Of a stretch of 21,173 bases of DNA, positions 1,600 to 17,993 are shown piece after piece. Every line of letters starts with the position of its first letter. Within the stretch, counting starts at the first letter, position 1. The stretch comes from a virus. Location: positions 1-21,173 of IMG/VR virus record IMGVR_UViG_3300042556_000100. One strand, written 5' to 3'. The position numbers and the translations under genes were made by a program. Below the pieces are notes generated by a model that did not search any database, was not told where the DNA came from, and saw only the letters and a program-made list of their open reading frames with translations.

Positions 1600-1637
1600 T
1601 GTTGACGTACTGTAAGAATTAATAGAGACTTATTGTT
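1600..1637. promoter_or_regulatory. Divergent intergenic region, probable promoter site
   Basis: Only 38 bases separate the start codons of the minus-strand nuclease gene (1599) and the plus-strand secreted-protein gene (1638). The plus-strand gene has no upstream neighbour in its own direction, so it needs a promoter here or inside the nuclease gene. TTGACG at 1602-1607 resembles a sigma70 -35 box and TGTAAGAAT at 1611-1619 resembles an extended -10, but the two are not correctly spaced with each other. The purine-rich AGAGA at 1624-1628 is a weak ribosome binding site. Position argues for a promoter; the sequence does not define one. Confidence 0.3.
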
Positions 1638-2012
1638 ATGAAAACAATCCAAATTTTATTAATGACTGTTTTGGCCTCAATTGCATTTGCTGATGATGAA
1701 GTCGAAATTAATGATTTTGTTGGCGGAGTTTATAAGGGTTCTGGCACAGTTCATACGGCTGGAAGCGTGATTATGACTAGGGAGGGATTGATATTTAAGT
1801 CTGGAAGTAGATTCATTTATCAGGATGGGAGAGTGTGCCAGCATGTTGGATCAACATATATTCGCGAGGACAATAGCGTTGTTGTTCGTGCTGGCAGTAC
1901 ATTTGTGTCGAATGAAGGAATAATTGAAAAAGTTGGCTCGGCATATATTGGAAATGTTAATTCATTCACGGCTGGATCTACAATTGTTCGTCAATCAAAT
2001 TGGAATCCTTAA
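1638..2012 (+). CDS. Secreted repeat protein of unknown function, only plus-strand gene
   Basis: This 124-residue protein starts with a clear Sec signal peptide: MKTIQILLMTVLASIAFA, then probable cleavage before DDEVEIND. The mature part has six [ASV]-G-S-x-[hydrophobic] units (AGSVI, SGSRFI, VGSTYI, AGSTFV, VGSAYI, AGSTIV) spaced 13-15 residues apart, which suggests a small beta-roll or solenoid. One cysteine is present, and there is no membrane segment or sortase signal. It is the only gene on its strand and more AT-rich to the eye than its neighbours. It sits at the border between the virion and DNA-metabolism modules, all as expected of a moron (an independently expressed cargo gene). Its TAA shares TTAA with the stop of the muramidase gene. 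No known family is recognised. Possible roles are periplasmic, surface or superinfection exclusion, none shown by the sequence. Confidence 0.8.
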   Translation: MKTIQILLMTVLASIAFADDEVEINDFVGGVYKGSGTVHTAGSVIMTREGLIFKSGSRFIYQDGRVCQHVGSTYIREDNSVVVRAGSTFVSNEGIIEKVGSAYIGNVNSFTAGSTIVRQSNWNP

Positions 2013-2580: not shown

Positions 2581-4704
2581 CTATTTCTTATTGATTTCTT
2601 GCTCAACCGCTTGATTGCGGAGGGCATCGTGAATTTCCTTGATGTCTGGATCTTGGTTTGCTTCGTAAATCTTGTTTAGGGTAGCGATGGCTGCGGATGT
2701 GTTGGAGACAGGCTTATTTGCGTTTGTGGCAAGCCAGCTCACAAACTCTGGATTGGTGAATAGTCGAGCAGCCTGGTTCGCACCGACAAGTGTGCCAAGG
2801 ATACCAGATGCAAATCCAAACTTGCCAGCAGCGACTGATCCAACTCCGCTTGTGATCGTGGCAGGAACAACTACAGCACCAGCAGTTCCAGAAGGATTCG
2901 CCACAATGCTGGTGCTTTCCCTTATCTTATTGGAAACCTTGGCGATTGTTTCCATGTCATTCTTGAATTTACTTCCGAACCTGCCAAACAAGATGTCCTT
3001 TGAAGCATTATCAAGCTTGCCGTAGTTCTGCAAGAATTTTGCAGTACTGAACACATCGCCAGTTTCATCCTGTAGGCCAGCAACAGCCTTACCCATCCTT
3101 GAAATGTAGGCAGCAGATACGGCCTTCTGAGCGTCCTTAGGTACTGCGTTGAATACTTCGCGGAGCTTGGTTGGTCCATTGCGAGATCCGCTGATTACTG
3201 CTTGATAAGCATCCTCTGGATTCTTATTTAGGATCACAGATTGGATCGAATCCATTGTATCGTGGAATTTCTTGGTATAAACATTCGCCTTCTTGAAGGC
3301 AGCTTGAGCCTCTGGCCCTTGTTGAGCTGCTGCGTTCTCAAGATCCTTCGACAATGCTCCGTATAGACTCTTCCATTGCGCCTTGGGTACGTCTGGAGCT
3401 AGGTCAACTGTAGCTATCTTCTCGCCAACCCAAGAGCGTAAATCGCGCAATACGTTAAAAGGAATTTCTCCAGATGGACTTAATCTCTTTGTCTCCTCAA
3501 GCCCACCCAAAAGCGACGTTAGTTGCGTATTGGAAATTGAAGCTTGCAGTTCTGGTGAAGCATTGCCAAGCCTATTGGTGAACTCATACAATTTACCCAT
3601 AGTCTCGTCCGAATTAATCGGAGTGCGCTCTGGCATGTATTGGTCAAAACGATTATAAAGAGCTTTTTGGGTCTGCCTCGCTCTTGGTACAAACACCTCA
3701 GAGAATCCTTTCTGGATTGCCTTGCCTGCCTCAACTGGTTCCGTGATTGGCGATAGCTGAGTTCTTAGTTCTTCAACTCTTTTGCCAACTTCGGCTTGTT
3801 GTGTCATGCCCTTTTCGCGCATTGCAGTCATTCCACTTGGGAATCTTCCTGTGCTTGTTTCAATTGCCTGGGTCAATGGATTCTCTACTGCTTGTGCCAG
3901 GGTAGGTGTAGTTCCAGCTTGACCATATAGCTCAATATTCTTGGCAATCTGCTCTTGAGTCTTACCACCGCGAAGCATTCTTAATATGAAATTTTTGGAT
4001 GTCTCAGTTGCCCCAGCCGTTCCAGCGATCATTGCTGGGATTGGGGAAACTCCAAGCTTGCTGGCAGTAGATGCTACTTGGGTCATTCTTGAAATTGGAG
4101 AAGGAGCAACAGCTCCAGCCAATCCAACAAGCCCCTGCTCTAGCGGACTTGCGCCAGCTTCTCCAGCAGCAGCAGCAGCTCCAGATCCAAGTGCAGCACC
4201 AGCAACCTGCGTCCTTGGCGAAGCACCAAGTATCTCGCCTATTTTCTGGATTGCCCTGGGCGCGCCCTTCATCCCAGCCATAGCTTGGCCACCCATAACG
4301 AGCGGAACCATCTCGGCAACTCCACCCACAACCCTGGACTCAATGCGCTCAAGCGGAGTCTCTGGTTTGGGTAGGCCAATCTGATTCTTGATATCCTCCA
4401 GGACTGCGCTGAGTTCTGGTACTTTCCTCTTCTCGTCACCTTGCGCAACGAGCGAATTGTAAACCTTTGCGCCGATATCGGCCAAGAATGCGCCAGAAGC
4501 ACCAACGCGAGCAGCAGGAGCAGCAACCTCAAATGGCGCGCCTGCTATTGCTCCACCAACAGCACCAACAGTTGCAGGCGTAATCGCTTCTCTTGCGATT
4601 AGGCCAGCCTGTCTACCCACCATCTCTGGAATGCTTCTGTCTTGAGTGGCTGGAGCTTCAACCGCAATCTCCTCACCCTTACTATTTACTGGTATGAGTG
4701 CCAT
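2581..4704 (-). CDS. Internal virion / DNA-ejection protein (707 aa)
   Basis: This is the largest gene of the window. The protein has long Ala/Gly-rich stretches that could insert in membranes (about residues 36-75, 165-200 and 605-640), alternating with charged helical segments such as 295-345 and 420-480. The lack of a signal peptide, together with this composition and a position among coiled-coil proteins just before a muramidase, matches the large core or ejection proteins of short-tailed phages, which leave the capsid to form a conduit through the cell envelope. I see no lytic transglycosylase motif inside it; the muramidase next door may supply that activity. Start ATG lies 7 bases after the upstream stop. 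Assignment rests on composition and position, not on a recognised domain. Confidence 0.65.
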   Translation of the reverse strand: MALIPVNSKGEEIAVEAPATQDRSIPEMVGRQAGLIAREAITPATVGAVGGAIAGAPFEVAAPAARVGASGAFLADIGAKVYNSLVAQGDEKRKVPELSAVLEDIKNQIGLPKPETPLERIESRVVGGVAEMVPLVMGGQAMAGMKGAPRAIQKIGEILGASPRTQVAGAALGSGAAAAAGEAGASPLEQGLVGLAGAVAPSPISRMTQVASTASKLGVSPIPAMIAGTAGATETSKNFILRMLRGGKTQEQIAKNIELYGQAGTTPTLAQAVENPLTQAIETSTGRFPSGMTAMREKGMTQQAEVGKRVEELRTQLSPITEPVEAGKAIQKGFSEVFVPRARQTQKALYNRFDQYMPERTPINSDETMGKLYEFTNRLGNASPELQASISNTQLTSLLGGLEETKRLSPSGEIPFNVLRDLRSWVGEKIATVDLAPDVPKAQWKSLYGALSKDLENAAAQQGPEAQAAFKKANVYTKKFHDTMDSIQSVILNKNPEDAYQAVISGSRNGPTKLREVFNAVPKDAQKAVSAAYISRMGKAVAGLQDETGDVFSTAKFLQNYGKLDNASKDILFGRFGSKFKNDMETIAKVSNKIRESTSIVANPSGTAGAVVVPATITSGVGSVAAGKFGFASGILGTLVGANQAARLFTNPEFVSWLATNANKPVSNTSAAIATLNKIYEANQDPDIKEIHDALRNQAVEQEINKK

Positions 4705-4711
4705 TGTTTTA

Positions 4712-6094
4712 TTATGGGGCTAGTCTGAATTGCTGACCATTTATATTTACAACATCTCCATCGCGCATTCCAGCAGCGCGAGCTTCGGCCTCAGTCTTAA
4801 ATGCACTCTTTCTCTTCATTCCGAATGAACCAATATCTTCTGGATCTGCATTGGCATCAAGAACTGCTTGAACTGACTTAATTCCGAATCCATTGGCGCG
4901 AGCATCGGCAACAAACTTTCTAGCCAAGACCTTCTTCAACTCGCCTAGTCTTTCTGGCGCAGCAAAGTTAATCACGGCAGTAGGATCTGCGATTGCAGTC
5001 ATCAACACGTTCCTATCTTCCTGCGTCATCGTGCCAGGGCCACCGATTGCAATGCGCATTTGTCCAGCAAGGGCTGTCCTGATCGCATCCGCGCGAGCCA
5101 TGAGTCTTGGCCTAGCCAAAACATCGCCTGTTTGAACTTGATTGCCAAGGTCAAGGAGTTCATCGATTCCGCCAACAGATGAGACAAAGTTTGGCACAAG
5201 TCCGCGAACTTCATTGGCGGATTTCTCGCTGCTTGCCATTCCTTCAAGACCAGGGATCTTGAGTGCGTTCTGAGCGATCCTTTTTGTCTGTGCCTTTTCA
5301 TATCCAGACATCTCTCCAACTGTTTCCTCGGCAGCCATGCGTTCTGGCGAGCCTTCTGGAAGAGAATTAATATAAGATATAGCCTTCGCCTTCATCGGAA
5401 CGAGCTGTTCCAATCTCTGCTGGTAAATTGATCCAATATTCGCTGTGGCTGGAACTGTTCCGCCACCAAGACCCTCTGGTACTGGAAGCGTTCCAACCAA
5501 CTCGCCCAGCTGTCTGCTTGTCGCAGCCTGCGCAGCTTCCGTTCCGATCATCCTCTTGCGCATGTCGGCCTCAAGCTCTAGCGCAGGGCGCATCATTTGA
5601 GTTGCCATATCTTTTTGCATGACAGGGCCAGCAGCTCCCTCTGGAAGCGTAGCTGATGCGGATTGTAAATTCTTAACTCGCTCGCCAGCAGATGAAGCAA
5701 GCTCGCCCTGCGTTGCCAAGTCCTGCTCCAGCGCGCTTCTTAGTCCGCTAAGACGAGCAGCCTCGATTGGCGCGTACTCAGGAGATGCCTTCCTTCGTTT
5801 CTCTTCTTCAGCAGCAATTTCGCCTTTCAGCTTCTCTATTCCAAGCATCCCCTTCTCTCTCTCGGCTCGGAGCGCGGCTTGGCCTTCTGGACTCTTTAGA
5901 TACTCCTCTTCGCGAGCAATCTTTTCTAGGTTTGAACGCAAAAGATCTTGCTGAAGCTTTCTTGTTTCACGCTCCCTAGCCTTATCTTGTTCCTCCAATG
6001 CTTTTTCGGAACGATATTTCTTAATACTATCCATTTGCCAAGGCATTGGGATAAGCGGATCTTGTGGATCTAAACCTAGAGCATTAACTGCCAT
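4712..6094 (-). CDS. Coiled-coil internal virion / DNA-ejection protein (460 aa)
   Basis: Residues about 25-130 are a long, highly charged helical region (repeated Lys/Arg/Glu with regularly placed Leu, for example RKLQQDLLRSNLEKIAREEE), predicted to be coiled coil. The central part (about 150-300) is Ala/Met/Glu-rich, and the C-terminal third contains a conserved-looking helical segment around IRTALAGQMRIAIGGPGTM, followed by QEDRNVLMTAI. The last residues (DGDVVNINGQQFRLAP) form a small beta element often found at the ends of phage core proteins. There is no signal peptide or membrane helix. It begins 3 bases after the preceding gene and is followed 7 bases later by the 707-residue protein, forming a block of co-produced core proteins. 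Function is inferred from context; the gene itself is certain. Confidence 0.65.
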   Translation of the reverse strand: MAVNALGLDPQDPLIPMPWQMDSIKKYRSEKALEEQDKARERETRKLQQDLLRSNLEKIAREEEYLKSPEGQAALRAEREKGMLGIEKLKGEIAAEEEKRRKASPEYAPIEAARLSGLRSALEQDLATQGELASSAGERVKNLQSASATLPEGAAGPVMQKDMATQMMRPALELEADMRKRMIGTEAAQAATSRQLGELVGTLPVPEGLGGGTVPATANIGSIYQQRLEQLVPMKAKAISYINSLPEGSPERMAAEETVGEMSGYEKAQTKRIAQNALKIPGLEGMASSEKSANEVRGLVPNFVSSVGGIDELLDLGNQVQTGDVLARPRLMARADAIRTALAGQMRIAIGGPGTMTQEDRNVLMTAIADPTAVINFAAPERLGELKKVLARKFVADARANGFGIKSVQAVLDANADPEDIGSFGMKRKSAFKTEAEARAAGMRDGDVVNINGQQFRLAP

Positions 6095-6097
6095 AAA

Positions 6098-7873
6098 TTA
6101 TCCTATTTTCCCATCCATCCATTTTCGAATAATTGCCTTTATTTTGGGCTTGTTTCGTATCGATTCTGCAATTCTTTCTCCATATTTAATGTAGAAGTTT
6201 CTTAGATTGTCAGATGCTTTAGTCATCATCCATTCCCTAAATTGCAACCATTTTGGATTGTCTATTCCATAAACCTCTCTTGCCACCCAGCAAAGCATTC
6301 CCATTCCAGCAAAACTTCCAGCAGCACCTGCGAGATCTTTCACTCCGCCTGCAACTGTTGCAAAGTTCTGGAATCCACTTGGCTGGCTTGAGACAGCTTT
6401 AATGTAATTTCCATAATTACTTGCTTGGTAATTTGCCAGCGTGTTGTAAAGCGAAGCAGAAATATTTGAAAGGCTAATCCCAGCATTTGGATCAGTTGTC
6501 TGATAGAAGTTAGCTGCTGTGCTTGCGCCTTGGCCAAAGTTACCAGGAAGCGATTGGTTGGCTTGAATGTAATTCTGGAACGCTGCGTTCTGTTGCCCTG
6601 TCCTAGCATTGCTAAGATTGTAGATGGAAGGACCACCAGCAACAAAACCAGCAGCAGATCCAAGCCTTGTCTGTAGCAAGGCATCGCGGAGTGCAAGATC
6701 GCGCTGTAGTGCATCACCAGTTGTTTGGCCAGAAGATAGGAACTGAGATGCTGCTCCGAATCGTGCAAGCTTGCGAGCCTCGCCAGCAGCACCAGATTCG
6801 ACAGCTTCCTGCACAGCAGGCGCGACACCAAAGATGTTGCCTCGAACTGTCTGAGCTGCGCGAGCTGCCTGCTCGTACTGCCTGCGCTCGTCCGCACCAA
6901 GCGTAGAGCCAAGTCTTAATTGGTTTAAGGCTTCTTGCTCAATTTGGCTTCGTAAGTCTTCGGTCTGTTGGGATGTAGTTGCAGGCAATTCTTCAGTTGC
7001 CAATTTCCTGTATTTATCGCCCAAGGCAACGGCAGTCTCGTAAGCTTTCGGATCAATCTGTTTTAGCTGATCGCTGGCGCGTTCCTCTGGAAGTTTGAGG
7101 AATTCCCTAAAAGATGTGATTTCCTTCTGGCCAGTTGTATCCAATGCGGTGATTGGTTTAAACCCTGCAACCTGTGCCTGCGCCGAGGTGATTGCTTCGC
7201 TGACGCTCCTGCTGTCTTCGTTAAGAGTTTTTAGAGATGCCTCAAGCGGAGCGCGCCTTGCGTCATCAGCTTTTAGCTTTGAAAGCAATTCGCTGGTTGA
7301 TGCAATCTTTTCGTTAATTCCGACAATTTGAGTGTTGCCTCGATCGACAACCGACTTGAGCGAATTTAGCTTTGCATCGTTGTAGTCGTTTATGATCTGA
7401 TCGTCGGAAACTTGGAAGTTAAGCTTTGTGCCAAGGTTGGACGCGCCATAGTTTCTTTCTCCAGACAGAGCGGTTAATGCACCACTTAGTCCAGTTGCCC
7501 CAGCCCTAATCTGCCCAGCAGCAGTATTTAGTTCGCCTGCTTGCTTGGTGTAGCTCTCGTCAAGCTTTCTGGCTGCTACTGCTTCTGCTGATTTAAATTC
7601 TTCGTCTGCCAAGTACTTGTTGTAAGCATCATCAAAATTCTTGGCCATTCCTGCTGGGTCTTTTGCGGACATGGAGTAAACCTTGCCGTCATGCCTGTGC
7701 GAATAGGTTGATGTGCCAGCTAAAAATTGATTGTAATCAGGAACTCTAGGACTTCCGTCTACATTACCTGCGCCTCTTCCGCCACTCGGATAAAGCGCAA
7801 GAAGTCCAGCATCGCCACCAATGCTCGGTTTATATTGTTTGTTGAAAAATTCTTGTTTTGATAATACTGCCAT
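6098..7873 (-). CDS. Internal virion / tail-tip protein with CWVAREVYG C-terminus (591 aa)
   Basis: ATG at 7873 is chosen because it follows the upstream stop as TAA-T-ATG, a junction used elsewhere in this operon; a GTG three codons upstream is possible. The N-terminus (SKQEFFNKQYKPSIGG) is followed by Ala/Gln/Leu-rich helical regions with many charged heptads (about 90-390), then a Ser/Gly/Asn-rich part (400-510). The last 75 residues carry the block CWVAREVYGIDNPKWLQFREW, ending IIRKWMDGKIG. To my memory such a block recurs at the C-termini of tail or ejection proteins of many unrelated phages; the single Cys and clustered Trp residues are typical. The protein probably travels with the genome or forms the tail tip. 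Its role is inferred from position and composition. Confidence 0.65.
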   Translation of the reverse strand: MAVLSKQEFFNKQYKPSIGGDAGLLALYPSGGRGAGNVDGSPRVPDYNQFLAGTSTYSHRHDGKVYSMSAKDPAGMAKNFDDAYNKYLADEEFKSAEAVAARKLDESYTKQAGELNTAAGQIRAGATGLSGALTALSGERNYGASNLGTKLNFQVSDDQIINDYNDAKLNSLKSVVDRGNTQIVGINEKIASTSELLSKLKADDARRAPLEASLKTLNEDSRSVSEAITSAQAQVAGFKPITALDTTGQKEITSFREFLKLPEERASDQLKQIDPKAYETAVALGDKYRKLATEELPATTSQQTEDLRSQIEQEALNQLRLGSTLGADERRQYEQAARAAQTVRGNIFGVAPAVQEAVESGAAGEARKLARFGAASQFLSSGQTTGDALQRDLALRDALLQTRLGSAAGFVAGGPSIYNLSNARTGQQNAAFQNYIQANQSLPGNFGQGASTAANFYQTTDPNAGISLSNISASLYNTLANYQASNYGNYIKAVSSQPSGFQNFATVAGGVKDLAGAAGSFAGMGMLCWVAREVYGIDNPKWLQFREWMMTKASDNLRNFYIKYGERIAESIRNKPKIKAIIRKWMDGKIG

Positions 7874-7874
7874 A

Positions 7875-8351
7875 TTAAACACTCATGTTCGGATTGGAAA
7901 CATTTGTTCCAATGGTTGAAAAATAATCGACAGGAGCTGCGCCTTGTGAGAACGCGACTTCTGGTTGAACTGCGCCATATGGGCTTTGCCCATAAAGACG
8001 AGCAAACTGAGTTGTCATCTGCTGACCAAGACCCTTGTTCAAGGCAAACGCTTCTGGCGAGTACTCGTACTGCCTACGAAGCGATTCCAAGGTGCGCTGT
8101 GCGCCGTACTGGCGTTCCAGCTCAAGATTCGACCTGACAGATGCAGCTTGATCCAAGGCGGACAACTGCCTCTCCAGCTCCCTCTGCTGTGGCATGTATT
8201 GCATGCGAAGCTTGTTCTCAAGCTCGGCCATAGCAGGAGATTTTTCAATATAGGTATCAACGTTTTTACGATACATTTCAGCATTAGCCTGCGCTACTGC
8301 TGTTGGGTCTGGCGGTGGGGGCGGTGATGGAATTGAGGGTGATCCGCCCAT
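7875..8351 (-). CDS. Small virion protein with proline-rich N-terminus (158 aa)
   Basis: The N-terminus is a Gly/Ser/Pro run (GGSPSIPSPPPPPDPTAVAQ), a feature seen at the start of many phage core or tail-tip proteins. A charged alpha-helical, probably coiled-coil region (about residues 20-105) follows, rich in Gln, Arg, Glu and Leu. The C-terminus is Gly/Asn/Phe-rich and probably extended. The start follows the previous stop as TAA-T-ATG, and its own stop is followed by the same arrangement, so it is coupled to both neighbours. It is the first of a run of four proteins that fit ejection components. No enzymatic motif, signal peptide or transmembrane helix is visible. Virion role is inferred from place and composition. 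Confidence 0.6.
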   Translation of the reverse strand: MGGSPSIPSPPPPPDPTAVAQANAEMYRKNVDTYIEKSPAMAELENKLRMQYMPQQRELERQLSALDQAASVRSNLELERQYGAQRTLESLRRQYEYSPEAFALNKGLGQQMTTQFARLYGQSPYGAVQPEVAFSQGAAPVDYFSTIGTNVSNPNMSV

Positions 8352-8352
8352 A

Positions 8353-8739
8353 TTAGTTCAATGCCTTTCTCATAAATGTATTGTAATCGTACTCCTTTTG
8401 TTTGCCTAAACGTTTAAAAGTTATGTGCTTGCGTGGTCCGAATCGATCCAACAGGATCAATAGCAAGCCTTTGAGTGGGGCTACCGACTCAGCATTTCTA
8501 ATACCACTAGTAGCACACAAGTCAACAAAGATATTGTCTCCATGCTCGTCGTGGACGTAGTGGCCTACTTCAGAGCCACTATTAACGCACCTAGCCAAGG
8601 CAACGCCTAAAATCTCATCATTCCTGTTCCTTAATGTACCCATAAGTCCCTGCTTATCAAACCATCCTACCCATTCCCTAAAGTTAGGCCACATTGCCTC
8701 GGAAACACCACTTTTCTCAAGAAACTCTACCTGGGTCAT
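8353..8739 (-). CDS. Small protein in the T7 gp13 position, possibly GNAT-like (128 aa)
   Basis: This 128-residue protein starts inside the upstream stop (ATGA overlap), so it is coupled to the tail protein before it. Its pattern of short strands and helices (EILGVALARCVN, GHYVHDEHGDNIFVDLCATS, then PLKGLLLILLDRFG, and HITFKRLGKQKEYDYNTFMRKAL at the end) resembles a reduced GNAT acetyltransferase fold, including the final strand-then-helix with aromatic residues. I do not see a clear acetyl-CoA-binding Q/RxxGxG/A loop, so catalytic activity is doubtful. Size and position directly after the gp12-like gene match T7 gene 13, whose product is needed for virion assembly. Both the fold suggestion and the gp13 analogy are inference. 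Confidence 0.6.
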   Translation of the reverse strand: MTQVEFLEKSGVSEAMWPNFREWVGWFDKQGLMGTLRNRNDEILGVALARCVNSGSEVGHYVHDEHGDNIFVDLCATSGIRNAESVAPLKGLLLILLDRFGPRKHITFKRLGKQKEYDYNTFMRKALN

Positions 8740-10592
8740 ATGTTTTGCTGAATCTGAATTGTATCTGGATTTGCCGCCATAATGACCCCTCGGATGGAGA
8801 GCTTTCTACTAGCAGCCTCAACCTTCATCTTGATATTGCGCCACTTGTCGTATGACCTAAGACTATCCGCCCTGCGCTTTACAACCTTTGCGCTTAGTGT
8901 CGCTGGAAGTGTAAATGGTAGAGTCAATCCGTCAGGCGAAGTTGTGTCAACATTCGTGCCAAGGACAATATCGTTACCATCTGTATCCCTGCGCATACTT
9001 ATCGTCGCATTGGTAGATCCAGAATTGAAGAATTCAATCTCATAGTGCGATCCGTACTTCAGCGCAAAGCGGTCATCAAATTCATACGCCTTGGTGACCA
9101 CCCTGCTCGTATAGCCAGTACCAAAATCTTGGAACCCTGTATTGATGTCAACTGAATCTGAATCCTTGTAATCCGTAAGGTGACCAATCCTTGAGTTAGT
9201 TGTGCCTATACAAAGTTTGATTGTGTTCGTGGTGAATCCAGAGGTAAAGCTTGTCTCAACCATCCTTGCTGCTGCGATTTCCCACAAGCCTTCAAAGCAA
9301 TTGAAGATTGAGTTGTACACCAATATGTGGCTTGGCCTTGTTGCCGAATCCAGAGGTATGGCTAGGAGGTATCGATTGTTGTGGAATGTAGCATTGCAAG
9401 TCTCAATAAAGCTTCTGTTGATCCTTGCGATGATATCCTTAACTGGCTCGCTTATTGTGAGGCCAACTGTAGAGAAGTCATCCGCCAAAGACCTTGAGAC
9501 TGATCGTATGCCGTCATTCGCCAAGAAGAACACATCCTTGTTTACCAAGGCAACTGATCTTCCAGCGATACAACCAATCCTATTTGAGATTGTCTGAACA
9601 GTCCACTCTGCTGCACTATTGGTAAGCGATAATACGCTGGTTCCTGATGTCACAGTCGTGCTTGGCGTGACATCAACCAGGTAGATCTTGTTCCTCTTAA
9701 ACACGATGATTTGAAATCCGTAGAATGGCTGGATTGCGATAATATCTTCGCCATCGTCACCGCCCACAATGATTGAATTGGTTGTCTTCCATATCTCTGG
9801 ATCGAGAATGTCAGAGGCGTAAAGAGTGTTGCGACTCTCACCTGTGCCTACGGCAAAAAGCCGATTTGTAAATGATTTGATTAAACGAAGTCCAGAGGGG
9901 GCCAATTGAGTAGAAATGTTTGCCGTGGCTGCTGCTCCGCTTCCACCTCCGCCAGTAATTGTAACTGATGGAGCAGTCAAGTATCCAGACCCAGCGTTGG
10001 TTACTGTTATTGCTGTAACTTTATTTGATACAACAGTTGCAATTGCGGTTGCAGTTGTTCCATATCCAGCAGTTGGAGTTCCAATTGTTACAGTAGGAAC
10101 GCTTGTATATCCACTTCCATCGTTTGTAACAGTAATTGATGCAATGCTAGTACCTTGGCGATGGGTATCTGTCCCATCTGTAAACTGCAAATAGTTTGAT
10201 CCGTCAGTATAAAATAACTTGTTGTTTAGCTGTGCAAACTCAAGTTGATTTGTGGAATTTACAAACGTCCCGCCAGTAGTCGAGAACGTGCTTGAGCCTG
10301 TATTGTATCTATAAAGAGATCCGCCTGTGGCAACAATAATTTCCTCAAAGCTTGGCGTATCAAAATAAAACATGCCTTGAATTGTGTTCGCCGTAGAAAA
10401 GCTTGTCGAAACTGTCTCAATGCCCTGGCGAGTCTGAAGGTTGCCATTGGGCGAAATGGTCATGTTAAGCAGCTCAGAGGCTGCGTTATCCGCAATAAGA
10501 TTGGGGCTAATGCCAGATACCTGGCCACCATCAAAACTTGGCGTGACAGCTACCGACAGTACATCATCTGTTGCATCCGTGAAGTACGGCAT
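8736..10592 (-). CDS. Tail tube/nozzle protein, beta-propeller (gp12 / P22 gp10-like)
   Basis: The 618-residue protein is beta-rich throughout. Near the start is a segment common in short-tail nozzle and stabilization proteins (NLIADNAASELLNMTISPNGNLQTRQGI, roughly 31-58, here as the known 'what is in the input' block preceding a propeller). Blade-like repeats follow (LYRYNTGSSTF, KLFYTDGSNYLQF, NRLFAVGTGESRNTLYASD, YGFQIIVFKRNKIYLVD, DVFFLANDGIRSVSR). Together these fit the phage nozzle/stabilization beta-propeller that prolongs the short tail. Residues about 149-227 form an extra insertion made of two GSGY-type repeats. The gene follows the gp11-like protein after 4 bases and overlaps the next gene by ATGA. 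Family-level confidence is good, but I cannot distinguish T7-type from P22-type. Confidence 0.75.
   Translation of the reverse strand: MPYFTDATDDVLSVAVTPSFDGGQVSGISPNLIADNAASELLNMTISPNGNLQTRQGIETVSTSFSTANTIQGMFYFDTPSFEEIIVATGGSLYRYNTGSSTFSTTGGTFVNSTNQLEFAQLNNKLFYTDGSNYLQFTDGTDTHRQGTSIASITVTNDGSGYTSVPTVTIGTPTAGYGTTATAIATVVSNKVTAITVTNAGSGYLTAPSVTITGGGGSGAAATANISTQLAPSGLRLIKSFTNRLFAVGTGESRNTLYASDILDPEIWKTTNSIIVGGDDGEDIIAIQPFYGFQIIVFKRNKIYLVDVTPSTTVTSGTSVLSLTNSAAEWTVQTISNRIGCIAGRSVALVNKDVFFLANDGIRSVSRSLADDFSTVGLTISEPVKDIIARINRSFIETCNATFHNNRYLLAIPLDSATRPSHILVYNSIFNCFEGLWEIAAARMVETSFTSGFTTNTIKLCIGTTNSRIGHLTDYKDSDSVDINTGFQDFGTGYTSRVVTKAYEFDDRFALKYGSHYEIEFFNSGSTNATISMRRDTDGNDIVLGTNVDTTSPDGLTLPFTLPATLSAKVVKRRADSLRSYDKWRNIKMKVEAASRKLSIRGVIMAANPDTIQIQQNI
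9912..10148 (-). repeat. Two GSGY-type repeats inserted in the nozzle protein
   Basis: Residues about 149-227 of the beta-propeller protein hold two related units. Each begins ITVTN-(D/A)-GSGY and continues with P-(T/S)-V-T-I, then a Gly/Ala/Thr-rich stretch. Such units occur as add-on beta modules in many phage structural proteins. They interrupt the propeller between two blades, so they probably protrude from the tail surface. Confidence 0.7.
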
Positions 10593-10596
10593 GGCT

Positions 10597-11541
10597 TTAG
10601 ATGATCTCTTCTAAACCAAGTTCGCCAAGAGATGTTGGGGTGATCTGCTTCATTCCGCCAACCTGGCTCAATTCGTAATTCGCCATAGATGCTAGGTCGG
10701 TATTGGCAGTTTGAACAACAAGCTGTGCCTTGCCATACTGACGCTCACGCTCTAGGGCATCGGCATGCGTCAATGCTAGTACGACATGACTGACATGCGG
10801 AAGGCGAAGTTCGTCACCAATGGCGTTGGAGGATGGTGGGAAATCTACAACGTAGTTCGAGCGAGTAAGGCATTGGAGCTTTTCGATTACCTTTAATGTC
10901 GATGTGCTGGTTGTATCTAGTCCTGGGTAAACGTCAATTTGAGCGATACCAGAAGAGTTGCGCCCCTTAAAATAATACGCCTGCGGTGTGCCAGTTCTGT
11001 TGATGTCCAGCAGATCAGCATCTTGCGATATAATCGTTGCAAGATCCATTGGGGTAAGTTCGTTGTCCCCCCAAGCAACGGAGAGAGGTGTCTCTACGTT
11101 TGTGCCGAGGGATACTGTGCGTGATAATGTTATTGATGCGGTTGGAGCTACCAGCACCCCAAAAGGTGTGTTAGGATTCCATTGCGTTAAGTCAGTTCCA
11201 GTTGTGAAATATGTATACAAACTTTCATTTGTATCGTAAACATTCCATTTATTATCATTAAAATCAATACTATTATTCCCAATTGTTGCATTAAATGCAT
11301 TTGTCCCAAAAGATGTTCTTGTGTAAGTTCCGTTTGATGTTGTTACATCTGCGCCAGACAGAATAACCTGCGCAATATCCGTAATCCCATACGTCGAATT
11401 GGTAACAGTCTCGCGCCAGGGCGCAAAGTTCCAAACGCGCCGATAGTTTAGGGCTGCTGCTTTTTGCAGGAACGTGATAGTATCAGCATCGGTCTTACCG
11501 ATCTTCTCGCCTGCAAACTGAGCGATTTCGGTGATCGTCAT
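10597..11541 (-). CDS. Head-tail connector / tail tubular protein A-like (314 aa)
   Basis: The N-terminal 45 residues are helical (TITEIAQFAGEKIGKTDADT, then LQKAAALNYRRVWNFAPWRETV), the arrangement found at the start of gp11-type adaptors, where helices pack on the portal. The rest alternates strands and loops with several Ser/Thr/Asn-rich segments. Its place immediately before the gp12-like nozzle protein, with 4 bases between, is the standard order of tail tubular protein A and B in short-tailed phages. It starts 6 bases after the stop of the fibre-like gene, with no Shine-Dalgarno, so translation probably depends on coupling. No enzymatic motif is seen. The role is mainly inferred from gene order. 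Confidence 0.6.
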   Translation of the reverse strand: MTITEIAQFAGEKIGKTDADTITFLQKAAALNYRRVWNFAPWRETVTNSTYGITDIAQVILSGADVTTSNGTYTRTSFGTNAFNATIGNNSIDFNDNKWNVYDTNESLYTYFTTGTDLTQWNPNTPFGVLVAPTASITLSRTVSLGTNVETPLSVAWGDNELTPMDLATIISQDADLLDINRTGTPQAYYFKGRNSSGIAQIDVYPGLDTTSTSTLKVIEKLQCLTRSNYVVDFPPSSNAIGDELRLPHVSHVVLALTHADALERERQYGKAQLVVQTANTDLASMANYELSQVGGMKQITPTSLGELGLEEII

Positions 11542-12980: not shown

Positions 12981-13108
12981 GGCTTTGTGGCCCCTAGGTC
13001 AGATGCAGCCCCCATGTCCGAATAAACTGGTAAAGCATTGTTATCCTGCTTGCGTGGCGAGCAGGAGGACAAGGAAAGGCACAGAACGGAGATGAGTAGA
13101 AGATTCAT
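12977..13108 (-). CDS. 43-aa lipoprotein, candidate outer-membrane spanin (Rz1-like)
   Basis: A 43-codon frame starts at 13108, sharing one base with the sulfotransferase stop (TAATG), and ends in TGA overlapping the next start (ATGA). The product has a short hydrophobic signal (MNLLLISVLCLSL) and a lipobox ending LSSC, so Cys16 would be lipidated. The mature part is only 28 residues, polar, and ends GATKP; the residue after Cys is Ser, which favours outer-membrane sorting. Size and layout resemble Rz1-type o-spanins, which span to the inner membrane together with an i-spanin, although this one is not notably proline-rich. No i-spanin with an N-terminal membrane anchor is seen beside it. A host-surface lipoprotein for exclusion is the alternative. 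Confidence 0.75.
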   Translation of the reverse strand: MNLLLISVLCLSLSSCSPRKQDNNALPVYSDMGAASDLGATKP

Positions 13109-13908
13109 TATAGTTCTTTAATCCACTTAAATGATTCGTCAATCTGACGAGAAAACTCTTTCCCCAACACATCATTCCAATCCTTCTCCAAAGGCTCTAC
13201 CTTATTGCGGATAGTATGATCGCCGTAAGGCCAACCAAGTTCGTGTTCTGTGGTGTATTGTTCGACATTATCAAAGTCGTGGCTGGGTGATTCTAATCCC
13301 AAATAATTCCATACCGCTTCCATAGTTTCCTTGGGTTCTTCAGTCAAAGATTCGAAGTGAACAAAGTGTAGCTTGCCCTTATGCCTCTTTACTGCGTCAG
13401 ACAATCTTTCCACCGCAATACCAAGGGGAGGTATATTAAGCCAACCCTGTGACCTCTTCTCTATGGTCGTCCAGTTTTGGGGGTTTTGTTTTTCAACGCC
13501 TGTAAATGGGAATGGATGCTTCTGCCATTTCTTTTCAAAGGAGGAAAGGATGCCTCGCATATCACGAACTGGCACTAGCACCTTGGCGTTAGGCCAAATT
13601 GCGAAAAGCATATCTAAATGACCAACCCAAGAACGGCATTTGTCGGCTACGATAGGCCGTTCGGTTAGCCTGTTGAACGCGTTCTCGCACCCACCCTTCA
13701 CATAGTCGTAGAATAAAGTTTCTCCATCCCTGGGGTTGGGGATGGTCTTAAACTCTTCGGTGCTACGAAACTCTCTCGCTATGTAGCCAATTTCGTGCAA
13801 TCCGCTGGTGGCTGTTGAATGGACTTTCTCGTTTTGTGCAAGCAAGTTCATTAGTAATGTTGACCCCGCTCTAGGCAGGCCAGAAACAAAATGAATGGTT
13901 TTAGACAT
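13108..13908 (-). CDS. PAPS-dependent sulfotransferase family protein (266 aa)
   Basis: Starting at ATG 13908, the protein opens with SKTIHFVSGLPRAGSTLLMN. The motif SGLPRAGSTLL (9-19) is the 5'-phosphosulfate (PSB) loop that binds PAPS. VLVPVRDMRGILSSFEKKW (110-128) fits the 3'-phosphate-binding strand with Arg115 and Ser122/123. HFVHFESLTEEP (181-192) matches the conserved strand before the dimer/loop region. The protein would move sulfate from PAPS to a hydroxyl or amine of a carbohydrate or protein; the acceptor cannot be read from sequence. It has no signal or membrane helix. An upstream in-frame ATG at 14004 would only add a tail translated out of frame through the LRR gene. No Shine-Dalgarno precedes 13908. 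Its TAATG overlap couples it to the lipoprotein gene. Confidence 0.82.
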   Translation of the reverse strand: MSKTIHFVSGLPRAGSTLLMNLLAQNEKVHSTATSGLHEIGYIAREFRSTEEFKTIPNPRDGETLFYDYVKGGCENAFNRLTERPIVADKCRSWVGHLDMLFAIWPNAKVLVPVRDMRGILSSFEKKWQKHPFPFTGVEKQNPQNWTTIEKRSQGWLNIPPLGIAVERLSDAVKRHKGKLHFVHFESLTEEPKETMEAVWNYLGLESPSHDFDNVEQYTTEHELGWPYGDHTIRNKVEPLEKDWNDVLGKEFSRQIDESFKWIKEL

Positions 13909-13937
13909 ACAAGGAGTGTGAAGCAGAATTGTGATTC

Positions 13938-14804
13938 CTACAAGTTCTTTATTACTGTGACGTTTGTATTCCCCTGGAAAGTTAATCCAGTTCCAGCGGT
14001 CCATGTGGCATCTACTGCTCTAGCACGAATAGTCAGGGGAGAAGCAGTTTGGTCAAATGCGTTTGAACCAACAAAAGCTGTTTGCGCTGCAAAGCAGCTA
14101 ACTGAAGTTAATCCTAAATTGTAAGAAAATGCATAACTACCAACGCTAGTAACACTGTTTGGTATAGTCAGCGTGGTGAGTGAGTTGTTAGCAAATGAAT
14201 TACCGCCAATGGTTGTAACACTGTTGCCTATGGTCACAGCAGTTAGCCCGAGGCCTGGAAAAGCACTAGCAGGAATATTTGTCATGTTTATGTTTACAGA
14301 AACAAGTGGGTTGTTACCAAATGCATATAAACCGAGGCTGGTAACATTGTTGGGTATGGTCACTGCAGTGAGATCATTGTTATTGAATGCATAATTACCA
14401 ATGCTTGTGACACTGGCAGGAATAGTGAGTTCAGTTAATTGATTTTTTGCAAACGCATAATTTCCAATACTCTGTACGCTGTTTCCAATCGTTGCTGTGG
14501 CTAAACTTGTGCATCCATAGAAGGCTTGACTACCAATGGCAGTTACGCTGTTTGGAATGGTTATTGTGGAAAGACTAGTGCAATAATAGAAGGCTTGACT
14601 ACCAATGGCAGTTACGCTGTTGTTGTTTGCAAAAATAACAGAGGCGACAGTAGCTTCGTTTTTAACCCAACTATTGGGTATATCCCCTGTAATTGTTGAT
14701 CCGACCTGTACGCCAGAGGAGTTGAAGGCTTTCGAGGTGGTGATGGGTGCTTCGCCAATTTTGAGTATATTTTGCACCCCCAACCCCAATGAAAGTCTTG
14801 GCAT
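13938..14804 (-). CDS. BspA-type leucine-rich repeat protein in the virion operon (288 aa)
   Basis: From ATG 14804 (an in-frame TTG at 14819 directly follows a stop), the first 55 residues (PRLSLGLGVQNILKIGEAPI...) look like a phage attachment segment. Residues about 62-256 then hold nine LRR_5 units of the pattern S-V-T-x-I-G-x-x-A-F-x-x-C/N-x-x-L-x-x-[IV]-x-[IL]-P-N, period 23. The last 32 residues (beta-rich, ending NTNVTVIKNL) cap the solenoid. BspA-like repeats are binding modules known from surface proteins of bacteria and protists, so a receptor-binding or virion decoration role is plausible. There is no signal peptide, which argues against secretion by Sec. Two neighbouring units are nearly identical at DNA level. 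No good Shine-Dalgarno is visible. Confidence 0.78.
   Translation of the reverse strand: MPRLSLGLGVQNILKIGEAPITTSKAFNSSGVQVGSTITGDIPNSWVKNEATVASVIFANNNSVTAIGSQAFYYCTSLSTITIPNSVTAIGSQAFYGCTSLATATIGNSVQSIGNYAFAKNQLTELTIPASVTSIGNYAFNNNDLTAVTIPNNVTSLGLYAFGNNPLVSVNINMTNIPASAFPGLGLTAVTIGNSVTTIGGNSFANNSLTTLTIPNSVTSVGSYAFSYNLGLTSVSCFAAQTAFVGSNAFDQTASPLTIRARAVDATWTAGTGLTFQGNTNVTVIKNL
14517..14552 (-). repeat. 36-bp direct repeat in the LRR gene, copy 1
   Basis: These 36 bases are identical to 14586-14621 and lie exactly 69 bases (23 codons, one LRR unit) from them. They encode most of an NSVTAIGSQAFY unit. Confidence 0.93.
14586..14621 (-). repeat. 36-bp direct repeat in the LRR gene, copy 2
   Basis: Identical to 14517-14552. 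The flanking unit halves differ (YYCTSLSTITI versus YGCTSLATATI in protein), so only part of the unit is conserved between the copies. Confidence 0.93.
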
Positions 14805-14866
14805 ATAATTAAAATGCAATCATCCGCCAGGGAATAGAACCTTGAGCGGTATGACTGCTGATATAA

Positions 14867-15965: not shown

Positions 15966-16994
15966 TTAGCTGTAGTTCGACTTCGCGAAGATCGCGCGGA
16001 AGAACGTAGTATCCAATTGTTTGGCAGCATAGAACGTCTTAAAGGACGCCACTACGCGTTGGCCGTAAGGATCGGATTTATCAGCAGCGTCAAGGATCGT
16101 GACCTTCGGTGCGAAGGGCGAGCCAGAGGCAACAACTGAGTTCAGGCTGGGAACTCCAAAGGAGTTTCCGCCCAAGAGCAAGTTGCCGTAGACAGCAGCA
16201 GATGCCGTAGCAGCGTTAGCCACACCAGCAGCAGCAGTTGCAAAGGTCTGAACGTTGGTGCTGGAAACGACTTTGCAGCCGAACAGCGAACCGATTTCAC
16301 CTTTGAAGATGGCTTCAGGGTTCGAGTAGCTCGAAACCTTCAACCAATCGTCATCCTGCTGGAGGTCACGAATGACCGCAGGGTGAGCGACAAGGACGTA
16401 AGAATCCTTGATCTTGGGCGCACGGCTGATGAACAACGAAGTCGCGCCGTCGAGCAAGTCGGTGGCGGTGATTGCGCTGTTAGCAACAGAGCTGGTCGCG
16501 AAGGTCGTGCCGTTTGTGCCACTTTGGGCATAACGAGCATACGACTTCGTGGCAACGTTTGTGCCAGTCGAGGTGGAAGAATCCTGGATCAGCGCGCGGT
16601 GACACAGAGTGTCCGCATGCAGAGCAGCGTCTTCACCCAACTGCTTGGTGGCCTGGGCGAGGTGGTTGAACAATTCCGTCGCGAGCAATACGTCCGTGAG
16701 GACGACCTGACTGCCGTACTGCTGGAGGGTCGCTTCAACTGTGGACAGGGTCAACTGACGTTGATCCGAGCCATCGCTAACAGTCGTGCCTTCCGACAGA
16801 CCAACAATGCTGCTGATCGAAGGATTATCAAATTTGAAGAAGCGGATGGTACGATTTCCGCCGGTTTTCGAAGGATACGCCACCTTCATTGCAAACTGCT
16901 CCATTTGGAGCAGGGGGAGCGCACGTTCCAAGAGCATCTTGGAGAAGTACGTCTGGAACTGTGCAGAGACAGATCCTGTAGTTACATTAGCCAT
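15966..16994 (-). CDS. Major capsid protein, N4-gp56 family
   Basis: This 342-residue protein has the N4-gp56 family profile. The N-terminal arm (VTTGSVSAQFQTYFSKMLLE) is followed by LPLLQMEQFAMKVAYPSKTGGNRTIRFFKFD, then the family-typical helix ATLQQYGSQVVLTDVLLATE and LAQATKQLGEDAALHADTLC (about 88-130), then DSYVLVAHPAVIRDLQQDDDW in the middle. Members are HK97-fold capsid subunits. The length is close to that of usual members. A clear AAAGGAAA site lies about 8 bases before the ATG. The gene follows the scaffolding gene after a 33-base gap, the canonical order. It has one cysteine and a Ser/Ala-rich insertion around 140-170. I regard this as the most secure structural assignment of the window. 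Confidence 0.9.
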   Translation of the reverse strand: MANVTTGSVSAQFQTYFSKMLLERALPLLQMEQFAMKVAYPSKTGGNRTIRFFKFDNPSISSIVGLSEGTTVSDGSDQRQLTLSTVEATLQQYGSQVVLTDVLLATELFNHLAQATKQLGEDAALHADTLCHRALIQDSSTSTGTNVATKSYARYAQSGTNGTTFATSSVANSAITATDLLDGATSLFISRAPKIKDSYVLVAHPAVIRDLQQDDDWLKVSSYSNPEAIFKGEIGSLFGCKVVSSTNVQTFATAAAGVANAATASAAVYGNLLLGGNSFGVPSLNSVVASGSPFAPKVTILDAADKSDPYGQRVVASFKTFYAAKQLDTTFFRAIFAKSNYS

Positions 16995-17027
16995 TTTATT
17001 ATTTTCCTTTTAAACAACTAACCTATT

Positions 17028-17993
17028 TTACGATCTATCCGCCTCTGCTGCCATTTTCATCAATTCACGACCTTGCTCCTCCGAGGAGAGTTCGTGAAAA
17101 GCTTTAACGCGAGCAGGGCCAGAAGGTTGACCGCTTGCAGGTGTCGTTGCCTTTCTTAGTTGAGTCAATTCAGACTCATACTTTGCAATCTTCTTTTCCA
17201 AGTCAGAGGCAGCGTCCGCCTTGAGCCTCATCTTTGCCAATCCTACAGCATCATTGATTCCGTTAGGATAGTTCCTAAGAATCGCGTGTTGCTGTAACAA
17301 GGTCGATACTGCTTTGTAGAGATTGGTCGAAGAATCCTTTAATTCTGGATTCGCTTCGACTTCTCGCAAAAGGTTTTGGTCCCAGGCATTCTTCCATTCC
17401 GCTTGCGCCTTCTGCTCGGTATCTCTCTTGCCAGCAGTTTCAATCTCGTTGGCCTTGCTTTCAGCGAGTTTTGCAAGATCATCACGGCCTTCGTCACGAT
17501 AGCTTTTTGCGGCTTCGCGATAGTCATCCGCGCTAAACTTGCTAGAACTTGCCTCTGTCTTTGCTGGAGAAGCTTCTTGACCAGCCCTTGCAGTCTTGGC
17601 TGCTTCAATGGCTTCTCTCTCAGCCTGGAGTCTTGCACGTTCCGCTTTGACATCGTCCCACTCTTTGGCGAGTCGAGACTGTGCCTTTTGGTACTTGCTT
17701 TGCTTCTTTTCGGAAGCTGACTCTGACTTGGGTTCATCAGATTGCGTTGTTAAAGAGCTTGTTGATGTAGTTTCAGTCTTAGGGACTTCATCTACCACCG
17801 CATCGTTCGATGTGGATTTTGGTTCGGCGTTTTCTGGAGTCGTAGGTTTCTCCGAGCTATCACTACTTTCAACCTCCTGCTTAACTTCTTTAGTAGCCTC
17901 AACATTATCTTCTGGTACTTCATCTAACCCAGCGTCAAATGCTGCTGCTATCTTCAGCATATCAAGTTCAGTTGGTTCTTTGGAATCCGCCAT
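17028..17993 (-). CDS. Capsid scaffolding protein (acidic coiled coil, 321 aa)
   Basis: The N-terminal 85 residues are acidic and disordered (Glu/Asp/Ser/Thr-rich). They are followed by a long charged helical region (about 95-285) with repeated Lys/Glu/Ala heptads (KQSKYQKAQSRLAKEWDDVK, ERARLQAEREAIEAAKTARA), and a short C-terminal segment with GPARVKAFHELSSEEQGREL that could bind the capsid protein. Such composition, the position immediately before the major capsid gene and the absence of cysteine, signal peptide or catalytic motif are the hallmarks of phage scaffolding proteins, which guide procapsid assembly and leave it before packaging. AAAGG lies 8 bases before the ATG. No serine-protease triad was seen, so it does not look like a fused protease. 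Confidence 0.82.
   Translation of the reverse strand: MADSKEPTELDMLKIAAAFDAGLDEVPEDNVEATKEVKQEVESSDSSEKPTTPENAEPKSTSNDAVVDEVPKTETTSTSSLTTQSDEPKSESASEKKQSKYQKAQSRLAKEWDDVKAERARLQAEREAIEAAKTARAGQEASPAKTEASSSKFSADDYREAAKSYRDEGRDDLAKLAESKANEIETAGKRDTEQKAQAEWKNAWDQNLLREVEANPELKDSSTNLYKAVSTLLQQHAILRNYPNGINDAVGLAKMRLKADAASDLEKKIAKYESELTQLRKATTPASGQPSGPARVKAFHELSSEEQGRELMKMAAEADRS

Follow-up and report, generated by a model that had tools for sequence, protein, structure and literature searches.

A small gene of a freshwater phage, S, encodes a secreted beta-repeat protein of a previously undescribed family, the discrete classes of which are matched, genome by genome, to the C-terminal tail of a presumed internal virion protein, c1, encoded about 4-6 kb away. 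S lies at positions 1638-2012 (plus strand) of the window, this being the whole stretch of 21,173 nucleotides that was analysed. The matched two-part polymorphism is the new finding, for which the sequence data give good support; since S and the tail are linked across a freely recombining middle, it indicates that selection acts on the combination of both. As regards function, the best supported reading, with a probability put at slightly over one half (about 0.52), is that S would be a periplasmic, type-specific superinfection (entry) exclusion factor, while the moron reading under which the gene had been described in the initial annotation was not confirmed.

Most of what is known about superinfection exclusion comes from prophages and a small number of model systems. 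If the reading proposed here is true, discrimination between self and non-self would belong to the core functions of environmental phages that appear to be lytic. Moreover, the existence of about a dozen apparently cognate types, together with natural swaps between them, makes specificity, escape and co-evolution accessible to tests with short peptides and small soluble proteins, and the approach provides a method to find the partners of hypervariable phage proteins.

The S gene and its product

The S open reading frame, supported by its homologues, codes for 124 amino acids and belongs to class 0 of the family. As had been claimed initially, it starts with a Sec-type signal peptide (residues 1-18, positions 1638-1691, plus strand), with the sequence MKTIQILLMTVLASIAFA / DDE... 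around the cleavage site. Six repeat units had also been described, of which five follow the strict G-S-x-phi-[IV] pattern (GSRFI at residue 56, GSTYI at 71, GSTFV at 86, GSAYI at 100 and GSTIV at 113), the sixth being counted only if the near-match GSVIM at residue 42 is admitted; the spacing of 13-15 residues stands. The pattern is not due to chance, since 20,000 shuffles of the mature sequence contained 0.12 such units on average and 3 at most. These units of 13-15 residues are found in place of the GGxGxDxUx nonapeptide of RTX proteins. Throughout the S classes the cleavage region reads A-x-A/DD or similar and contains no conserved cysteine of the lipobox kind. Furthermore, S does not look like an integral inner-membrane protein of the SieA type, the N-terminal signal being the only such element in its sequence and the mature body being beta in the AlphaFold2 prediction.

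The structure of the mature protein of the window was predicted with AlphaFold2 from an alignment of 30 sequences, covering 8 of the classes and read as one family, with a pLDDT of 91.5, a pTM of 0.85 and four of the five models above 87. This prediction replaced an earlier and unreliable one made from a shallow alignment (71.6, with four of the five models at 36-42). The predicted fold consists of a helix at mature residues 2-13 (positions 1695-1730, plus strand), carrying the motif [ND]F[VI]GGVY of the alignment, followed by a repeat body of 12 short strands (positions 1749-1991, plus strand) with pLDDT values mostly of 90-96. The model thus points to a beta-repeat fold. Of the beta-roll suggested previously, the confidently structured, non-disordered character stands, whereas the choice between a closed roll and a single-layer meander is left undecided because Foldseek gave no significant PDB match for either S model (E of at least 0.24 and TM of about 0.2 for the confident one). 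The single-layer sheets of OspA, the CPAP G-box and MORN proteins appear as weak Foldseek neighbours and are like S in having successive short strands joined by tight glycine-rich turns, but none is a significant structural match.

The body of the protein is under purifying selection, with dN/dS values of 0.01-0.19 within classes and of 0.09 in class 0, for comparison with 0.08 in the RusA-like gene of the same phages. The signal peptide is under looser constraint than the body (0.34-1.01 within classes, 0.57 in class 0).

S, which the initial annotation placed between the virion and nuclease modules, is flanked by two minus-strand genes: a PD-(D/E)XK nuclease-like divergent neighbour (1216-1599; Pfam PF11645, E 7e-15) and an endolysin (PG_binding_3; 2009-2572), the 3' end of which overlaps the S stop codon and marks a swap boundary. 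In this endolysin and its relatives the N-terminus is variable and partly tracks the S class, while the C-terminus is conserved. The statement that S is the only plus-strand gene is valid for the window and not for the phage, because the fuller relatives of about 38 kb have a second plus-strand cluster. This second block, situated for example at 17.3-20.6 kb of genome G001, is made up of small, mostly unconserved ORFs, with the exception of a gene of about 65 amino acids (c25) and another of 233 (c50).

Upstream of S, a TTGAC box (1602-1606, plus strand) lies 36 nt before the start codon. The same box is present in 95/95 S loci, usually 34-36 nt upstream of the start, against a background of 10% of 75-nt windows. 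Its conservation suggests a promoter dedicated to S, of which the box would be part; a consensus scan of the S leader did not confirm a canonical -10 element or sigma-70 promoter.

Distribution and novelty of the family

S had been said to match no recognised family, and this was borne out: no relative was found in Pfam, PHROGs, NCBIfam, the PDB or 50,697 GenBank phage records, the PDB sequence search giving matches at E 0.2-1 only, which were judged to be chance. When plasmids were searched with a class 4 relative, the sole match, at E 0.06, was to an unrelated gene, and no homology of S to Eex, TraS or TraG was detected via Pfam or NCBIfam. Relatives do exist among environmental sequences, since a profile search of IMG/VR recovered 46 contigs carrying them. 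Searching instead by the neighbouring RusA-like gene matched 288 contigs, 80 of which were listed; 11 of these 80 end too early to be assessed, and all of the others (69/69 among the matches listed) carry a divergent plus-strand S-type gene about 640-865 nt from the RusA start. There is one copy per record. In every relative examined S is divergently transcribed, and none lies on the minus strand within the operon, the arrangement named in the initial annotation as counting against it. S is therefore a core gene of this phage group among the matches listed, and not a sporadic accessory gene as the term moron-like implied.

The phages concerned form a freshwater group with genomes of about 38 kb, of the short-tailed type and without cultured relatives; the GenBank relatives of their capsid and portal proteins all show less than 33% identity. 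Searches of 84,980 species genomes of bacteria and archaea, at the sensitivity used, yielded no relative of either S or RusA, and the group has no recognised integrase. There is thus no sign of prophages, and the suggested expression during lysogeny finds no support. The same is true of two of the roles proposed earlier, toxin and adhesin; the third, an exclusion factor, is also the reading favoured here for the probable function.

S classes and their exchange between genomes

At 60% identity, 95 non-redundant S loci fall into 11 classes, which are discrete, strongly conserved and cleanly exchanged between near-identical genomes. Between L002/G001 (class 0) and L128/G047 (class 3), for instance, the flanks are 94-97% identical and the S genes show background similarity; the boundaries of the exchanged segment fall immediately downstream of the TTGAC box on one side and within the final endolysin codons on the other. 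When the window and G001 (class 0) are compared with G047 and G062 (class 3), with flanks of about 95% identity, both S and the c1 tail are found to be exchanged. The class 0 allele of the window seems to have spread very recently, as suggested by the S gene of the window, which at the DNA level is 100% identical in G001 and in G021, whereas the adjoining genes of G001 share only 88-96% identity with those of the window and of G021, a difference of 4-12%.

The partner gene and its neighbourhood

The c1 gene (6098-7882, minus strand) codes for a presumed internal virion or ejection protein of 594 amino acids. It belongs to a minus-strand operon with the order adaptor-like gene (10597-11541), large tail protein gene (8736-10592), genes of 128 and 158 amino acids, c1, c21, a virion protein gene of 700-1600 amino acids and endolysin. 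We take this order to resemble that of T7 genes 11-16, and c1, c21 and c20 are for this reason candidate ejection proteins. The direct PHROG matches of c1, to virion proteins, are weak; in one relative, a gene of 1423 aa has a PHROG hit at E 5e-22 to a virion structural protein. In the window the gene following c1 is of the c21/c62 type (4712-6094, minus strand), and between the linked segments lies a large virion-module gene of the c61 type (2581-4704, minus strand), which recombines independently of S and of the tail. The tail adaptor gene of the window lineage contains an insertion of about 80 residues that is missing from most relatives.

The class signal of c1 is confined to its C-terminus (6101-6292, minus strand, in the window), where identity is about 0.8 within classes and 0-0.05 between them. 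The class 0 tail, CWVAREVYG...KWMDGKIG, is basic and not hydrophobic (mean -0.36). Other tails end in ...GLGNL(I/V)KI (class 1), ...IASGIGS.. (class 2), ...FKSYSLGG (class 3) and ...GSGAFFY (class 5), and, apart from class 0, most tails are rich in glycine and moderately hydrophobic, with a best 19-residue Kyte-Doolittle mean of 0.3-1.3. The N-terminal 30 or so codons of the adjoining c21/c62 gene (6005-6094, minus strand) also track the S class.

Linkage of S class and c1 tail

Measured gene by gene on nearest neighbours, agreement with the S class is 0.70-0.84 from the endolysin to c1, except for c20 (0.49), and it falls to 0.35 for the gene 40 nt upstream of S and to 0.33-0.44 for the tail genes beyond c1. 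The neighbouring structural genes c2-c5 show a weak link to the S class or none. The hypervariable tip cassette and the tail fibre were also considered as partners of S and were rejected, the class agreement of these genes being 0.11-0.50 as against 0.70-0.84 for most genes from S to c1.

The association is expressed hereafter as adjusted mutual information (AMI), with tail types defined by average linkage, since single linkage had merged several tails together and gave an AMI of 0.63. For S class against tail type AMI reached 0.86-0.88 (75-78 non-redundant contigs), and in 1000 permutations within backbone lineages it never exceeded 0.33. The corresponding values for S were 0.10 with the nuclease-like neighbour 40 nt upstream and 0.17 with the rest of c1. 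The intervening 3-5 kb gave 0.57 with S and 0.58 with the tail, whereas the value from end to end was 0.86.

The rule was also applied out of sample, the predicted tails being written down before further contigs were fetched. Of 29 new contigs, 27 were predictable and 26 of them obeyed the rule (class 1, 13/13; class 2, 6/6; class 3, 5/5; class 6, 1/2; class 7, 1/1), some tails being scored by type and not letter by letter (LFSFSKSF for LFSFNKAF in class 7, and FKSYSIQ in one class 3 contig). The remaining two contigs revealed tails of classes 9 and 10, for which none had been seen before.

In many genome pairs the whole segment from S to c1 differs together, and therefore pairs with conserved intervening DNA were tested. 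Among the 155 pairs with 80% or more conservation of this DNA, 150 were concordant, with both S and tail the same in 102 and both different in 48, and 5 were discordant. Conversely, 122 pairs share S and tail while the intervening DNA has diverged. Three of the discordant pairs involve G002, which has a class 0 tail with nothing more than an extension, and the other two combine different S with similar tails, as is seen for classes 4 and 9. Although the genome pairs are not independent, swaps are found repeatedly on several different backbones, namely in W/G047 (W being the window), G011/G012, G035/G060, G030/G037, G025/G007 and G059/G005. The only clear mismatch is G003 (L011, L054-L055), in which a class 0 S coexists with a non-class-0 tail, ...FFGSPSSSAFFR, and a next gene of the MPAITQ type; this genome is either a recent recombinant or an assembly chimera.

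A proposed type-specific exclusion factor and its alternatives

The T7 ejection proteins make a channel across the periplasm (PMC8954989). In the mechanism proposed here, c1 would be an ejection protein entering the envelope at infection, and S would be exported to the periplasm early in infection, where it would bind the tail of c1 from an incoming phage of its own type. This binding would block the assembly or function of the incoming DNA-entry conduit, so that the first phage would keep the cell. The signal peptide is relevant in this respect, as it places S in the envelope. There S would not meet the c1 that its own cell makes in the cytoplasm and packages, but it would meet c1 that an arriving virion ejects. 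A self-type exclusion factor would require just such a match to its own c1. An altered tail would mean escape from the exclusion exerted by a resident phage, and self-exclusion would then be kept only if a matching S were acquired; escape and re-matching of this kind would explain both the diversity of the types and their pairwise swapping.

S is shown to be a core gene, Sec-signalled, under selection, confidently predicted as to fold and endowed with its own divergent 5' region. The exclusion reading is favoured by the association of S class with tail type, by the pairs with conserved or diverged intervening DNA, by the out-of-sample result, by the joint exchange of S and tail in the lineage of the window, by the signal peptide and by the precedents of P22 SieA and conjugative entry exclusion. 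The G003 mismatch, the similar tail of classes 9 and 4, the non-independence of the genome pairs, the gene order and weak PHROG matches on which the ejection role of c1 is based, and the lack of a difference in target specificity among the SieA types of P22 (PMC10883804) count against it. In addition, the c1 tail may not be the sole partner of S, because the c21 N-terminus covaries with the S class too. Put more broadly, there is about an even chance that these phages possess a counterpart of the plasmid exclusion groups: a polymorphic, exported core protein of seemingly lytic phages would recognise, in the periplasm, the tail of its cognate ejection protein, and the self/non-self types, about a dozen in number, would be spreading through a freshwater phage population as cassettes of two pieces that are separated but co-selected.

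The same matching data would be expected if S, made early from the entering genome and exported, acted on its own phage by sealing, gating or dismantling the channel that c1 forms part of in the infected cell's envelope, and so had to match its own tail. The presence of S in all assessable loci among the matches listed would suit such a role in each infection, but G003 suggests that a mismatch is tolerated, and a self-acting part needs no dozen types, while exclusion gives a reason to diversify. This alternative is regarded as rather unlikely, though it is the main rival.

Toxin/immunity pairs display matched polymorphism of this sort, and S could be an immunity-like protector that neutralises a membrane-damaging c1 tail and shields the infected cell or its neighbours from lysis from without, exclusion being a by-product. 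The glycine-rich, moderately hydrophobic nature of most non-class-0 tails would fit this role; the basic class 0 tail does not, and no match to toxin families was found, which makes the proposal improbable. A slightly lower standing is given to S as a component of the virion or of its assembly that binds the c1 tail, for example by being added after lysis, with structural co-adaptation as the cause of the matching: S adjoins the virion operon and matches virion genes, but it carries a Sec signal and is transcribed separately and divergently, and c2-c5 are weakly or not class-linked.

It is very improbable that S serves as a moron directed at the host, be it an adhesin, a toxin or a fitness factor, with no relation to the virion, since, although it is secreted, has its own 5' region and belongs to no known family, this role fails to predict the link to a virion tail or the presence of S in every assessable relative among the matches listed. 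Finally, hitch-hiking on one large transferred block, which the joint differences of the whole segment might suggest, is hardly credible in view of the 48 pairs that keep the middle and change both ends, the 122 that keep the ends and change the middle, and an S-tail AMI higher than that of either with the middle.

Comparison with known systems

A close parallel to the exclusion role proposed for S is SieA of P22, which blocks DNA entry and is escaped by mutations in the C-terminal regions of the ejection proteins gp16 and gp20 (PMC10883804). Both SieA and S are phage-encoded envelope proteins that exist in several very different sequence types, and the C-terminal portion of podoviral ejection proteins is the target of SieA and the presumed target of S. 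Located in the inner membrane and produced from prophages, SieA is carried by 22/66 P22-like phages, and its types showed no difference of target specificity in P22 (PMC10883804); matched specificity is therefore not a general property of exclusion proteins. S differs in having a Sec signal only, in occurring in all assessable loci among the matches listed, in the lack of recognised integration in its phages and in types that match the presumed target, and the two proteins are not homologous. How an exclusion protein stays matched to a diverse set of ejection targets was not apparent to the authors of the P22 study (PMC10883804).

In conjugative entry exclusion, exclusion factor and target do occur in matched groups (PMC11493245). 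The Eex/TraS-TraG systems of SXT/R391 and IncF resemble S in that factor and target are encoded on the same element and form such groups; they differ in serving conjugation, in the cytoplasmic location of the interacting regions and in the adjacency of the genes, which are 4-6 kb apart here (PMC11493245). S is not homologous to Eex or TraG, and its polymorphism and that of its presumed target are matched at the genetic level.

Superinfection-exclusion lipoproteins of the Ltp, Llp and Cor type offer a further comparison; Llp of T5 masks a host receptor. Ltp of TP-J34 and Llp are, like S, small exported phage proteins, and the TP-J34 system involves a virion protein, the tape measure (PMC3952083, PMC9586334). 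Both are lipoproteins, unlike S, which has no lipobox, and no sequence relationship with S was found.

Other variable loci

Besides the segment from S to c1, the window contains an apparent second hypervariable site that bears no relation to the S class (13108-14819, minus strand), where a sulfotransferase-like ORF (13108-14004; Pfam E 8e-18) overlaps an ORF with BspA-type leucine-rich repeats (13938-14819; E 1e-48); nearly every relative has a different gene at this cassette. In G005, a family 9 glycosyltransferase (heptosyltransferase-like, 13711-14820) and a 2OG-Fe(II) oxygenase (16751-17428) are possible modifiers of surface or DNA.
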